From Arthrobacter agilis (GTDB lineage Bacteria > Actinomycetota > Actinomycetes > Actinomycetales > Micrococcaceae), in the NCBI RefSeq assembly GCF_006494655.1, contig NZ_VHIM01000002.1, positions 186,001-250,000 on the forward strand: a stretch of 64,000 bases of DNA, in the 5' to 3' direction. How positions within the stretch are numbered: the first letter of the stretch is position 1; each line of letters begins with the position of its first letter. The translations under genes were made by a program, and so were the position numbers. Shown here one piece after another: positions 29,376-57,701 of this stretch. Under the pieces are notes generated by a model, which did no database searches, had not been told where the DNA came from, and was given only the letters and a program-made list of their open reading frames with translations.

Positions 29376-29402
29376 CTGGCACTCGCCTTGACCGAGTGCC
29401 AG
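29376..29402. promoter_or_regulatory. CIRCE element 1 upstream of groES
   Basis: CTGGCACTC-N9-GAGTGCCAG is a perfect 9-bp inverted repeat with the 9-nt spacer of the HrcA-binding CIRCE. It overlaps the -35 of the groES promoter. Confidence 0.88.
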
Positions 29403-29542: not shown

Positions 29543-29839
29543 GTGTCGGTCTCTATTAAGCCCCTTGAGGATCGCATTGTCGTCCGCCCCCTCGAAGCCG
29601 AGCAGACCACTGCTTCCGGCCTCGTCATCCCGGACACGGCCAAGGAAAAGCCCCAGGAGGGCGAGGTCGTAGCAGTTGGACCGGGTCGCGTCGACGACAA
29701 CGGCAACCGCGTCCCCGTCGACGTCGCCGAGGGCGACATCGTCATCTACTCGAAGTACGGCGGAACCGAGGTCAAGCACGGAGGCCAGGAGTACCTGGTG
29801 CTCTCGGCTCGCGACGTCCTCGCCATCGTCGTCAAGTAG
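29543..29839 (+). CDS. groES: Co-chaperonin GroES
   Basis: A 98-residue co-chaperonin forming the heptameric lid of GroEL. It starts [20 protein letters not shown], followed by the mobile loop [19 protein letters not shown] that docks on GroEL, and ends [15 protein letters not shown]. The start is GTG at 29543 with AAAGGAG upstream. Two CIRCE elements and a clear promoter indicate HrcA-controlled heat-shock expression. It is separated from groEL by a strong intrinsic terminator, which is unusual for this pair. Confidence 0.97.
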
Positions 29840-54500: not shown

Positions 54501-55738
54501 GAGTGGACAGGAGTCTCGACACCTATCTGAGCGAGGCGTTCTACGACGGAAAGCTCTCGCGGCTCCCGTTGGCCTCGGAGGTCACCGGAGAAGGTCGCGG
54601 ACTCGTCGTCGAGTACCTTCCGAACGGCACGGGGATGCCGAGCTCCGAGCACGAGGGCGTCGAAAGCGTCGCCGTGGAGGTGAATCGCGTCGTCGAACTC
54701 GTCTTCGAGCACATCCGCCGTCGTCCGAGCTCCTCCCTCGCCGTCGTCACGGTCAGCGCCCGGCATGCAGCCCGTGTGGGTGAGGCGATCCGTCTCCAGA
54801 TGGCAGAGTTCCCGTGGGCCGCCGGATTCTTCACACCCGGACGCGAGGCTTTCCGTGTGGTTCCGGTGGAGCGCGCGGGCGGACTCGTCCGGGACGACAT
54901 CATCTTCTCGCTGGGATTCGGGCGGACGCCCCACGGGCGGGCGCTGCATTCCTTCGGGCCGCTCTCCGGTCCGGACGGTCGCCGGAACTTCGTCATGGCC
55001 ATGACCAGGGCGCGGCGCCTCCAGCACGTGCTCACGTGCTTCGAGCCGTCCGATCTCGATCGGGACAGGCTCACCGCGGGCGCCGTGGACTTCTTCGAAC
55101 TCCTGCAGCGCGAACTCGGGAACGGTGCGGCGCGTCCCGACACCTTGTCCGGAGGCACCTCCGCCAACGAGGACCCGCTGGTTGCGGACCTCGTCGACAG
55201 GCTGCGGTACCGGGGAGCTGAAGTGTGGGACCACTACGCCGGCGTCCTCGACATCGTGGCCGTACGACCCGCCGACCGGGGCCCCGACGGAGCCCCCGCG
55301 GCAGCCGGGGATGCGCGGCCCGCCCCGCTCGCCATCGAGTCGGACGGCACCGGCCGCTACGGCTCGATGTCCGTCCGTGAGCGCAGCCGGCTGCGCCCCC
55401 AGATCCTCGAGCGGATGGGCTGGCGGTACATGCCGCTGTGGACGATCGAGGTGTTCACCGATCCCGACGGTTGCGCGGAGCGCGCCTCTGCGGTGGTCGG
55501 ACTGCCGACGCGGGACGTCGCCGATCAACCCAGGACACGGAAGGACGCCGCCAGGATGCGCAAGGACGAGCAACACCCGGGCCGTGGAACGAACGTCGGA
55601 CGCGGGCCCGAGGAGCTTGCCGACGCATCGGAGTCCGTCCCGAGGACCGCGGCTGAGGACAATCCCCGCTCGTGGGGCGAGACAGAGGAGAACCACGACG
55701 ACTGGCTCAGGGAGCAGCGCCCTCCGCACTGGGGCTGA
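51533..55738 (+). CDS. SF1 helicase-like protein with C-terminal restriction-endonuclease-type domain
   Basis: A 1401-residue protein. A disordered, acidic N-terminus (1-95) precedes a large domain, then a UPF1/DNA2-like motor: motif I PPGTGQTQTALN, where Gln387 replaces the Walker A Lys; motif II VILDGES (about 917-923, Glu preceded by Gly rather than DE); motif III VVVFGDDRLAGPTRF; motif VI-like MAMTRARRL. The C-terminus (about 1218-1310) resembles the REase_MTES_1575 nuclease-type domain: VLDIVAV, AIESDG, then ERSRLRPQILERMGW. Such architectures act on nucleic acids, but the motor changes suggest weak or absent ATPase. No partner defence genes adjoin. Confidence 0.75.
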   Translation: MPIWSRSPRDNAGKKAVVPEQDQRDVEGTPPDTAQDGPHGAQHDDRQGAESRQPAEDDGGATGEGSGHGSKDDSAARPAPARPAQDAGAERPDAPSTAQDFLVPWLEGLGPQATGDTLLHFRPSAGTSIDLTHAHPSGLAQLLAGRRTRLSTLLRDPVQYSAAKAAARALRAKIFELGTERGIDVGFLAAGTASWRAVDASGRSETLNAPVLLTAISLSVHASQDDYELQITEQARMNPALVRHLRNHQGLQVDPVAIARLAYGTARFDPHPVLERMRSLAEGVRGMSVEHRVLVSTFADLAGVKGDPALSPEHPVLAALMAAARGDGEGTSALEGAADHLDFPTADDRDPAGEVLVLDADRAQQEVLDLAAAGVSLAVATPPGTGQTQTALNVAARAAATGSLVAIAAERRGTLNEFVQDLDGLDLGSLVLQAGSQTGSAQLREAVIRALVRNEKAVEPQLDTLHSTLRAHRHHLTEHVRSLHNVRSRWGCSPYQAMQSLAGLTALDPAPSTTVRLKRSVLDSIADRAELTGRLQRAAELGSFSRAATQSPWYGAQLLNRKETEHAHGLAEALATEIPDLRLRVQRVAEHSHITVGATFSEWGDQLELLVAVRESLDKFTPDIFDRPVTDLISATAPTSWRKEREIEMSTMTRSRLRRVAKEYIRPGVHISDLHSSLLEVQQQRTLWTRYALTERHPSVPTGLAEIHAAYHAVGTRLMELTGILHSTPGRPDLAGVGLDDLESVLTGLAADRETLETLPERTLLLDEMREQGLAELLDDLAAREVPADRVGSELELAWWQSALEAMISGDDYLAMSDGTSLRTLEAEFRLADNAHIASGPARIRWALAERWRAAVTAHAEDAARLRQELKDGTLTLEVFSGLHRDLVAALVPVWAVSPLTIRGSVPERFRFDTAVILDGESMSLQSAVPCIARARQVVVFGDDRLAGPTRFSIEVQSADRASTLEPLPSAFDALREVLPVRGLTEIYRGVDRSLDTYLSEAFYDGKLSRLPLASEVTGEGRGLVVEYLPNGTGMPSSEHEGVESVAVEVNRVVELVFEHIRRRPSSSLAVVTVSARHAARVGEAIRLQMAEFPWAAGFFTPGREAFRVVPVERAGGLVRDDIIFSLGFGRTPHGRALHSFGPLSGPDGRRNFVMAMTRARRLQHVLTCFEPSDLDRDRLTAGAVDFFELLQRELGNGAARPDTLSGGTSANEDPLVADLVDRLRYRGAEVWDHYAGVLDIVAVRPADRGPDGAPAAAGDARPAPLAIESDGTGRYGSMSVRERSRLRPQILERMGWRYMPLWTIEVFTDPDGCAERASAVVGLPTRDVADQPRTRKDAARMRKDEQHPGRGTNVGRGPEELADASESVPRTAAEDNPRSWGETEENHDDWLREQRPPHWG

Positions 55739-55749
55739 TCGGGTGAGAC

Positions 55750-56415
55750 TCACGGCCCGGTGAGGATCAGGTGGACATCGCCGGAGCTCGAGGAGCCGGC
55801 GAGCGCGGCGGCCTCCCCGGGCGCGGCGGCCACGACGACGAGGCCGCCCTCGGCGTCCGCTCCCGGCCAGGAGGGGGCCTCCGCGCCGGAATCGGTCCAG
55901 AGGACGGCGGCCGATCGGGCGAGCACGGTGGAATCCGCGGCGACGTCGTAGCCGTTGCCGGTGCGCAGGATGACGTCGACCCGTTGCCCGGGTGTCAGCA
56001 GCCGGACGGTGGCGGGGTCCGCCGGGCGAAGCGGGACCGCTACGGTCCCCGGTGGCGTGCCGGCGAGGAGCCCGTCCCCCACGAGATTCGTGGATGGGAT
56101 CGGGGAGCCCCGCAACAGGGGAGTGGCCACCTGCCGGCCCACGACGTCGGTTGCCTGCCGGAGGGCGCCGGGAGGCACGGCCGCGTCGGGCATTTCCCAC
56201 GGAACGAGATCGCCGTCGGTGAGCACGGTGCCCGTGGGAAGGTCACGAGCCGCGGTGATGATGGTCGTCGTCGCGACGTCGTCCCCCACGGCCGCTTCGA
56301 CGGCCACGCCCGCCGCAGCGCTGAAGAGCAGGCACGCGATGAGCCGCCGGTGGCGGTGCACCAGCCTCCGGAGGCGGCGCCGCAGCGGAGGTACACCCTG
56401 ATCGAGGATCGTCAT
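55750..56415 (-). CDS. SAF domain protein (CpaB/RcpC-like)
   Basis: A 221-residue protein with an arginine-rich N-terminus, one membrane helix (about 22-42: LIACLLFSAAAGVAVEAAV) and an extracytoplasmic SAF domain (ITAARDLPTGTVLTDGDLVPWEMP, about 50-115). CpaB/RcpC proteins of this form take part in Flp pilus assembly, but no pilus genes are nearby and the sequence fits only the SAF part. I chose the ATG at 56415; TACCGT 6 nt upstream suggests a leaderless message. It converges with the helicase-like gene 11 nt away. Confidence 0.72.
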   Translation of the reverse strand: MTILDQGVPPLRRRLRRLVHRHRRLIACLLFSAAAGVAVEAAVGDDVATTTIITAARDLPTGTVLTDGDLVPWEMPDAAVPPGALRQATDVVGRQVATPLLRGSPIPSTNLVGDGLLAGTPPGTVAVPLRPADPATVRLLTPGQRVDVILRTGNGYDVAADSTVLARSAAVLWTDSGAEAPSWPGADAEGGLVVVAAAPGEAAALAGSSSSGDVHLILTGP

Positions 56416-56421
56416 GCATCG

Positions 56422-56427
56422 ACGGTA
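56422..56427 (-). promoter_or_regulatory. -10 hexamer TACCGT, leaderless start of the SAF gene
   Basis: On the minus strand TACCGT ends 6 nt before the ATG at 56415. No ribosome site is seen. Confidence 0.4.
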
Positions 56428-56591
56428 GGGGAAGGGTTCCTCCGGATGTGCGGTACCGCTGCTATGTGGACAGTGATCCGGTTCGGCCCAGTGGCCGGAA
56501 CCGGCCACCGTGGAGACTCGCGGGCCTACTCACTCGCTGCCCCGGAGCAGCCCTGATCATCGTCCTCGGGTGCGTCCGGGGTTGAGCGGGA

Positions 56592-56939
56592 CTACGAGCC
56601 CGTCGCGGCGGATGATCCGGCGGAGGTGGACGACGCGCCGGAGGTCGGCGAACCGGGCGTGCTGGTGGGGTTCGCAGAGCCGGTCGAGGCTGCCGCGGTG
56701 GAGGCGGATGCAGCCGCGGGCGCCGTGCCGGAGGACGCGCCCGCATCGGTGCTGGTCTTGGTGTCCCTGGAGTCGTTGCGGTAGAAGCCCGAGCCCTTGA
56801 ACACCACCCCTACGCTGTTGAACTTCTTGCGGAGGGTGCCGCTGCACCGGGGACACGTGGTGAGGGAGTCATCGGAGAAGGACTGCTGGATGTCGAAGGC
56901 GTGGCCGCAGTCCTTGCAGGCATAGGCGTACGTGGGCAT
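56592..56939 (-). CDS. FmdB-type zinc-ribbon protein, probable Ruc-like chaperone
   Basis: A 115-residue protein. The N-terminal zinc ribbon (MPTYAYACKDCGHAFD and CPRCSG, about 1-45) is of the FmdB/CxxC_CxxC family, and the rest is a disordered tail of Ser, Ala, Thr, Gly and Pro. This layout, the CIRCE just upstream and the neighbours (5-formyl-THF cyclo-ligase, galU, rimJ) match Mycobacterium tuberculosis Rv0991c (Ruc), reported as a redox-regulated chaperone with an unstructured C-terminus. The four Cys would bind zinc and sense oxidation. The ATG at 56939 has AGGAGG upstream. Confidence 0.82.
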   Translation of the reverse strand: MPTYAYACKDCGHAFDIQQSFSDDSLTTCPRCSGTLRKKFNSVGVVFKGSGFYRNDSRDTKTSTDAGASSGTAPAAASASTAAASTGSANPTSTPGSPTSGASSTSAGSSAATGS

Positions 56940-56995
56940 GGAGTTCCTCCTGGACGGGCGTCGTGATCCCCCGGATGGCTCTCCTGCGACTGCTG

Positions 56996-57022
56996 CTGGC
57001 ACTCTCCTGGGGCGAGTGCCAG
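56996..57022. promoter_or_regulatory. CIRCE element upstream of the zinc-ribbon gene
   Basis: CTGGCACTC-N9-GAGTGCCAG, a perfect 9-bp inverted repeat with arms identical to CIRCE 1 of groES. It indicates HrcA control of the FmdB-type gene starting at 56939. Confidence 0.85.
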
Positions 57023-57026
57023 TCTA
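57021..57026 (-). promoter_or_regulatory. -10 hexamer TAGACT abutting CIRCE
   Basis: TAGACT on the minus strand runs into the CIRCE and also contains the stop codon of the cyclo-ligase gene. A weak -35 (TTCGAG, 57050-57045) lies 18 nt upstream. Confidence 0.45.
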
Positions 57027-57701
57027 CACCGGCTCTGTGCCACCCTCGAAGCGATGGAGGCCGTCCGCGGTGAGGACACCGGTGAGCGGCTGATCGTGGG
57101 GCTCGGCCGGGACGGCGCCCGCAGGCAGCACCTCCGACCTGTACACCACGCCCAGGCGGGGGACGGCGTTCGAGGCGGCCAGGGGATGGTGGGCGAGGAA
57201 GCGGTCGTAGTACCCGCCGCCCTGGCCCACACGCTGGCCCGAGAGGTCCACGCCGAGCGCCGGGACGAGGATGAGGCGGACGTCGGCCAGCTGGTCGAAG
57301 GCGCGTCGGGGGCCCACGGGCTCTGCCACCGGTGCGCGGACGGACCGTTGCAGCGCCACGCCCGGAGACCAGGAGGTCCAGGACATCCGGTAGGCCGGTT
57401 CGCAGATGGGGAGGACGACGTCGAAGCCGCGTCGGTACAGCGCCTCGAGGATGAGAGTGGTGTCCGGCTCCGGATCGATGCCGAGGTACGCCGTGACGAC
57501 CGGGCGGGCGCCGCCGGGCATCCTGCCCGGCGCCGCCCCGCCACCGAGGTGTTCCGTCACCGCGTGCGCCAGTGCCTCGGACTGCTTCCTGCGGTCGCCG
57601 GGGACCATCGCTGCTCGCGCAGCGCGCAGTTCCGCGCGGAGCGCCGCCTTGTCGGCACTCGCGCTGCCGTGCCGGTCGGTATCACGTAGTGCTGGACTCA
57701 T
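57024..57701 (-). CDS. 5-formyltetrahydrofolate cyclo-ligase
   Basis: A 225-residue enzyme converting 5-formyl-THF to 5,10-methenyl-THF with ATP. The N-terminal KAALRAELRAARAAM segment, the VVTAYLGIDPEPDT strand, LILVPALGVDLSGQRVGQGGGYYDRFL (phosphate and folate binding) and the closing GVLTADG are all family features. It is divergent from galU. Its ATG at 57701 lacks a ribosome site; CACAAT is 6 nt upstream, so a leaderless start is possible. Confidence 0.88.
   Translation of the reverse strand: MSPALRDTDRHGSASADKAALRAELRAARAAMVPGDRRKQSEALAHAVTEHLGGGAAPGRMPGGARPVVTAYLGIDPEPDTTLILEALYRRGFDVVLPICEPAYRMSWTSWSPGVALQRSVRAPVAEPVGPRRAFDQLADVRLILVPALGVDLSGQRVGQGGGYYDRFLAHHPLAASNAVPRLGVVYRSEVLPAGAVPAEPHDQPLTGVLTADGLHRFEGGTEPV

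Follow-up and report, generated by a model that had tools for sequence, protein, structure and literature searches.

The window, the whole 64,000-nucleotide stretch of the Arthrobacter agilis genome that was analysed, contains a gene coding for a small FmdB-family zinc ribbon protein, hereafter the ruc-like gene after its resemblance to Rv0991c (Ruc) of Mycobacterium tuberculosis (Table 1). Its product scores 58.2 bits against the PF09723 (Zn_ribbon_8) model, with a cut-off of 34.4, and 68.6 bits against TIGR02605, with a cut-off of 31.3, and is the sole PF09723 match in its own genome at an E-value of 0.001. The N-terminal zinc ribbon displays the cysteine pattern C8-x2-C11-x17-C29-x2-C32 that is characteristic of the Ruc family, and is followed by the FKGSGFYRNDSR motif and a C-terminal tail, which by composition is hydrophilic and of low complexity, as in that family: 54 of its 64 residues (52-115) are S, T, A, G or P, and 2 belong to the set I, L, V, M, F, W, Y and C. 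The original prediction of a 115-residue zinc ribbon holds, and the composition of the tail is of the disordered type predicted for it. The M. tuberculosis gene itself was found in 0 of the 396 genomes searched. An alignment with the primer-encoded parts of Rv0991c alone, in which mutated serine codons were taken as cysteine, gave 30 identical residues out of 44, inclusive of Cys8, 11, 29 and 32. Searches of PDB sequences with the ruc-like protein recovered two weak zinc-finger matches only. Across 31 aligned proteins from several phyla the invariant positions are M1, P2, Y4, C8, C11, C29, C32, F47, G49, G51, F52, Y53 and D56, and, cysteines apart, conservation is strongest in the FKGSGFYx(T/N)D motif at residues 47-56.

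Table 1. Features of the ruc-like locus and of the groESL locus in the window
Feature	Position	Strand	Basis
Perfect CIRCE (predicted HrcA operator), CTGGCACTC-N9-GAGTGCCAG	56996..57022	.	pattern scan, kept in genus
ruc-like gene, FmdB-family zinc ribbon, 115 aa, with FKGSGFYRNDSR motif, then Ser/Ala/Thr/Gly-rich tail	56592..56939	-	PF09723, TIGR02605
Shine-Dalgarno AGGAGG of ruc-like gene	56946..56951	-	read from sequence
-10-like hexamer TAGACT, over cyclo-ligase stop codon (TAG) and first two CIRCE bases	57021..57026	-	read from sequence
5-formyltetrahydrofolate cyclo-ligase, upstream neighbour, same strand as ruc-like gene	57024..57701	-	profile matches
SAF-domain/CpaB-like protein, downstream neighbour, 221 aa, 22.4 kDa from ATG 56415	55750..56415	-	profile matches
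galU	starts 57758	+	profile matches
Acetyltransferase, RimJ-like, under NCBIfam cut-off	starts 58667	+	profile matches
CIRCE 1 of groESL, arms identical to ruc CIRCE	29376..29402	.	pattern scan
CIRCE 2 of groESL, imperfect, 2 mismatches to TTAGCACTC-N9-GAGTGCTAA	29422..29448	.	pattern scan
groES (Cpn10)	29543..29839	+	profile match

The prediction of an Rv0991c-like layout with the cyclo-ligase and galU agrees with the locus of the Mycobacteroides chelonae homologue, which was picked up via its CIRCE and where both genes are also present. Across the class Actinomycetes a cyclo-ligase was detected within about 1.5 kb of ruc in 38 of 131 loci, a lower bound as the search started from a single sequence, and because of this count we rejected cyclo-ligase synteny as a definition of orthology. 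On the other side, the ruc-like gene is separated from the SAF/CpaB-like gene by 176 nt if the latter starts at 56415; its frame also permits a GTG start at 56508, giving 252 aa. In 48 of the 131 class loci ruc has a SAF-type gene 3' to it in the same orientation, again a lower bound from a single-sequence search of short downstream stretches. This conserved neighbour was observed in the window and, for example, at loci L160 (4577-5260), L181 (617-1330) and L076 (1888-2517), and in the Mycobacteroides locus L160 the ORF that follows it encodes what we take to be MscL. In M. tuberculosis the gene directly downstream of ruc is Rv0990c, encoding Hsp22.5 (PMC7448276). The SAF/CpaB-like gene seems to take the place of this mycobacterial gene, and as the window protein has a mass of 22.4 kDa and corresponds in position to Rv0990c, Hsp22.5 is probably a member of the same SAF family.

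The CIRCE before the ruc-like gene, 56 nt from its ATG at 56939, is real: it had been predicted to be perfect and to share its arms with CIRCE 1 of groESL, and both statements hold exactly. All 18 arm bases are matched at two places only in the genome (3.24 Mb in 48 contigs), namely before the ruc-like gene and before groES. A scan of the window for CIRCE with up to 3 mismatches gave 3 matches, as against a mean of 0.03 in shuffled sequence. The 12-base core occurs perfectly at 5 places in the genome and with at most one mismatch at 22, compared to 11 when the pattern is reversed, and therefore a core match alone is little proof. These 22 places include the two groESL sites, a tandem pair of CIRCE-like sites at a second groEL (one perfect and one with 1 mismatch; G000:C11:586888-586943, L188) and a site with 1 mismatch at hrcA (C1:25583), which is a single-copy gene. 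Thus, by sequence, the ruc-like gene, with its CIRCE of the form TTAGCACTC-N9-GAGTGCTAA or a close variant near its promoter, is a member of the HrcA regulon. The predicted regulon, comprising groESL, groEL, hrcA and the ruc-like gene, would have functions like those reported for M. tuberculosis HrcA (PMC7448276, PMC8557902). Two further core-perfect matches were observed with no recognised chaperone gene nearby, at G000:C32:136993-137013 (L191) and G000:C41:380531-380551 (L192), with a short-chain dehydrogenase about 650 nt from the former.

Each of the 24 genus members searched, A. agilis among them, has a ruc CIRCE whose core is perfect. In these 24 sequences the two arms carry 1.80 and 1.88 bits of information, the spacer 0.92 and the flanks 0.35 and 0.25, and the nine bases preceding the CIRCE, which make up the -10 region, carry 0.95 bits. 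Among near relatives, the ruc CIRCE was found in 32 of the 37 genomes with a ruc gene (two of them, G139 and G026, being counted as L015 and L056/L299), the loci devoid of it being L286, L300, L306, L310 and L319.

At the level of the class, a PF09723 gene was detected in 193 of 196 genomes. In 146 of these the best match was listed, the other 47 having weaker matches, and all 146 were scored by accepting a CIRCE core with at most 1 mismatch within 200 nt. By this definition 104 of the best 146 of 193 loci possess a ruc CIRCE, perfect in 37, while the reversed pattern was found in 0 of 146 and the CIRCE core in 4 of 2920 shuffled upstream regions. At least one positive locus occurs in 28 of the 33 families sampled. 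Counts of distance, cyclo-ligase, promoter, subfamily, SAF gene and start nucleotide are from an older set of 131 loci, 97 of them positive, which lacks 15 listed genomes (7 positive and 8 from family f25, where the site is absent); in this set the CIRCE lies 10-79 nt before the start codon in 96 loci. The 42 negative loci of the 146 are concentrated in a few families: f25 (17/17), f4 (9/9), f26 (5/15), f3 (3/4), f8 (2/2) and f31 (2/5), with one each in f29, f30, f34 and f35. In 30 genomes first scored as lacking the ruc CIRCE, one of which (G115) proved to carry it some 150 nt away, groES was found in 29, with a perfect CIRCE core in 24 and 1-2 mismatches in 5, all from f25. A check of 67 class genomes, 35 of them scored at that stage as ruc-CIRCE-negative, detected hrcA in all 67. 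As hrcA and a mostly intact groES CIRCE persist in the sampled negative lineages, ruc would appear to have dropped out of the regulon in most of them, with the regulon itself being kept. In four small genomes of f25 (genus g31; G053, G065, G118 and G154), all lacking a ruc CIRCE, the hrcA model matches in two pieces in a frame of 243-255 aa, and HrcA therefore looks shortened; the groES CIRCE is degenerate in G053 and G065. In f25, then, HrcA control may be decaying as a whole.

The association with CIRCE is restricted to one subfamily of PF09723 proteins, defined by the motif FKGxGF on the C-terminal side of its fourth cysteine. With identical sequences counted once, CIRCE was found in 130 of 181 FKGxGF proteins, compared to 0 of 67 other PF09723 proteins; as the sequences are related, the Fisher value for this contrast is uncorrected for descent. 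The former comprise 97/131 from the class, 29/34 from relatives, 1/1 from a further set and 3/15 from Dehalococcoidia, and the latter 9 from relatives, 2 others and 56 from Dehalococcoidia, the Dehalococcoidia figures representing part of the listed places only. This count excludes the 15 later-scored class loci and those with no parsable protein (L330-L333 from relatives, L343, L349 and L366). Likewise, 15 secondary PF09723 matches (of 21, in 15 multi-copy genomes), 5 of them below the family cut-off and most outside the regular expression used for the FKGxGF count, had at least 3 core mismatches in every case over 350 nt. When A-CIRCE-T preceding the start of an FmdB-type protein was scanned for as an exact pattern, 51 contigs were recovered, which carry CIRCE by construction and hence attest to breadth and not to frequency. 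Their labels include Dehalococcoidia, other Chloroflexi, Eremiobacterota, Riflebacteria, Ignavibacteriales, Acidimicrobiales, Nitriliruptoraceae, Nesterenkonia and Mycobacteroides; some bin labels look doubtful, as the proteins labelled 'Erysipelotrichia' (L169) and 'Methylomirabilis' (L178) resemble Riflebacteria ones. FKGxGF is present in the 49 parsable proteins from these contigs (L155 and L172 being left out), and hrcA in 44 of the 50 genomes with the exact pattern, 43 of them over the cut-off. The suggestion that the HrcA-ruc link extends well beyond mycobacteria therefore stands as far as the DNA site is concerned, in the genus (24/24), the class (104/146) and other phyla, but the link is not universal, being absent from 42 of 146 class loci. 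In Dehalococcoidia a minority of FKGxGF proteins, 3 of 15, have the ruc CIRCE, and from this and the 42 negative class loci it follows that co-regulation is not essential for the ruc protein.

The sequence GTGTAGA(A/C)T, which contains the -10-like hexamer, is found in 24 of 24 genus sequences. In a promoter set of 146 site-bearing loci, composed of 97 class and 49 pattern-found loci, a TANNNT begins exactly at -5 from the CIRCE in 71, compared to 5 with one shuffle of each, and in the window it begins at -4. This fixed position implies that the operator overlaps the likely transcription start. A scan for consensus sigma-70 promoters over 55600-57200 found none. The SigH/SigR-type pattern GGAAY-N16-20-GTT was not found over the operator at the window locus (L005), and occurs in 16 of the 146 site-bearing loci as against 1.5 in shuffled sequences; 13 of the 16 belong to f7, which we read as the mycobacterial family, f18, f19 and f20. 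All three f20 loci (L108, L117 and L125) have a SigR-like GGAAY-N-GTT at -24 from the CIRCE, which suggests that this family has a second, thiol-stress input.

A variant recurs in 65 of the 104 class ruc operators. These 104 have 67 core mismatches in total, of which 65 are at left-arm position 7 (C replaced by G in 61 and by A in 4), 2 at position 9 and 0 in the right arm. Operators with a purine at position 7 were observed, for example, at L016, L043, L075, L086 and L121, and in families f10, f14-f19, f21, f26, f32 and f37. The hrcA CIRCE of 11 genomes with the variant is without it (9 perfect, 2 with another mismatch), and the groES CIRCE is perfect in the one variant genome inspected, G115; in 9 other genomes the hrcA CIRCE was not seen in two, both f7. 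The mirrored change occurs at the second groEL site of the A. agilis genome and in some groES right arms. The purine may weaken HrcA binding or lie near the transcription start; for the idea that it provides the start nucleotide, the association with a -10 element at -6 to -4 is weak (37/58 versus 14/39, p=0.012, uncorrected for descent, 131-locus set).

Based on these observations we propose that the gene is very probably an Rv0991c-type ruc, a member of the HrcA regulon that is derepressed under stress together with groESL and encodes an oxidation-activated holdase, in an arrangement of long standing; HrcA binding, heat induction and redox activation are here extrapolated from M. tuberculosis. 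The interpretation originally put forward is supported by the sequence, the binding of HrcA, the response to heat and the chaperone role being assumed for A. agilis by analogy. In the absence of stress HrcA would sit on the CIRCE over the predicted transcription start and block it. Heat or protein-folding stress would inactivate HrcA, and ruc would then be expressed along with hrcA, groESL and the second copy of groEL. The Ruc-type protein would at first be zinc-bound and inactive, and if the cytosol became oxidising in addition, its four cysteines would be oxidised and the zinc released, resulting in a holdase that would hand its clients to DnaK. The placement of CIRCE before ruc is likely to be old in Actinomycetes and appears in several other phyla as well, with some lineages having apparently lost the ruc CIRCE and kept that of groES.

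It is unlikely, though deserving of consideration, that the site is a genuine HrcA operator and the protein some other zinc ribbon needed in heat stress, such as one that stores zinc or binds to DnaK or the ribosome. The chaperone activity on record was measured for Rv0991c (PMC7448276), and FKGSGFYx(T/N)D, to which the accessible text of that paper assigns no role, points by its invariance to a particular partner, while the tail of a holdase would be free to diverge. However, the cysteine spacing is the same as in Ruc, the protein is 76% identical to the M. chelonae homologue over the 58 residues of the ordered part, and it has the low-complexity hydrophilic tail of the Ruc description (PMC7448276). 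The motif also bears on what is known of the tail. The published inactive truncation of Ruc has residue 49 as its last (PMC7448276), and its primer encodes AVGVVFKG-stop, so that the end falls inside FKGSGFYx(T/N)D; the published need for the disordered tail would therefore be confounded with loss of the motif, the second half of which was seen in Mycobacteroides homologues, with Rv0991c being read up to its first half. The role of this motif and the operator variant are the two sharp tests that the survey offers.

There are two further ways to account for the repeat itself. That it works not through HrcA but in the RNA, as a hairpin or terminator behind the cyclo-ligase gene, one base past whose stop codon it starts, is very improbable and was rejected: a terminator scan found no terminator-like site, the arms are kept as sequence where a hairpin would need complementarity only, the spacer is constant at 9, and the CIRCE is retained at loci in which no adjoining cyclo-ligase was detected, this gene being found within about 1.5 kb in 24 of 96 CIRCE-positive loci. 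It is scarcely credible that the ruc CIRCE is a functionless chance or inherited copy, as could be argued from the 22 one-mismatch core places against 11 reversed, the core-perfect matches at C32:136993 and C41:380531 and the 4 of 2920 shuffled regions, since genome-wide counts, controls and conservation make chance unlikely, with arms kept and flanks diverging in 24 genomes, sites in 28 of 33 families at 10-79 nt in 96 loci, and none on scored paralogues.

We tentatively, and with some doubt, extend the proposal to the history of HrcA control of ruc: this control might be very old in the heat-shock response (Actinomycetes together with Chloroflexi, Eremiobacterota, Riflebacteria and Ignavibacteria), might have been lost several times from ruc alone, and might have been tuned in many actinobacterial families by the position-7 purine, which would probably weaken the operator or improve the start nucleotide. 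If this is true, the purine would let ruc respond at a level of stress that differs from that for the other regulon genes.

Direct repression of ruc by HrcA and chaperone activity of Ruc in its oxidised form are both published for M. tuberculosis (PMC7448276). The co-regulation of Rv0991c with chaperonins, which the original prediction had named, is thus a published result, and the basic HrcA-Ruc link was already known from that species. The same 2020 paper argued for a wider role of Ruc from gene neighbourhoods, and the word CIRCE is absent from its main text (PMC7448276). A literature search, to which subscription journals and primary HrcA papers were mostly external, recovered no paper joining FmdB and HrcA, none joining HrcA, zinc ribbon and CIRCE, and none joining HrcA, Streptomyces and zinc ribbon. 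The ruc-like gene is therefore a real member of the known HrcA-Ruc pair, whose wide cis-regulatory conservation was not found reported; what is new is the breadth of the CIRCE-ruc pairing, and the survey of cis-sites provides independent evidence for a role of this zinc-ribbon subfamily in the proteostasis of many bacteria.

The window locus resembles that of Rv0991c in the four cysteines at 8, 11, 29 and 32, the zinc ribbon with a disordered-type tail, the (here predicted) control by HrcA and the gene order cyclo-ligase-ruc-SAF gene, as in the Mycobacteroides loci. It differs in that a SigH-type promoter overlaps the M. tuberculosis site, a pattern not seen over the window operator, and in the tail sequence of its protein, the activity of which is putative. 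The operator is like those of the groESL/hrcA regulon in being promoter-proximal and in having the arms of groES CIRCE 1, but its target is a small zinc-ribbon gene; the HrcA regulon described in delta-proteobacteria comprises groESL, hrcA-grpE-dnaKJ and rpoH (PMC545781). Hsp33, as drawn in PMC7448276, is similarly a zinc-binding, redox-switched holdase, but is dissimilar in sequence according to that paper. Finally, other PF09723 'FmdB' paralogues share the zinc-ribbon N-terminus, and the 67 scored without FKGxGF are uniformly CIRCE-negative; the survey thereby separates the ruc subfamily from 'FmdB' proteins in which motif and site are both missing, and opens harmless organisms to testing.
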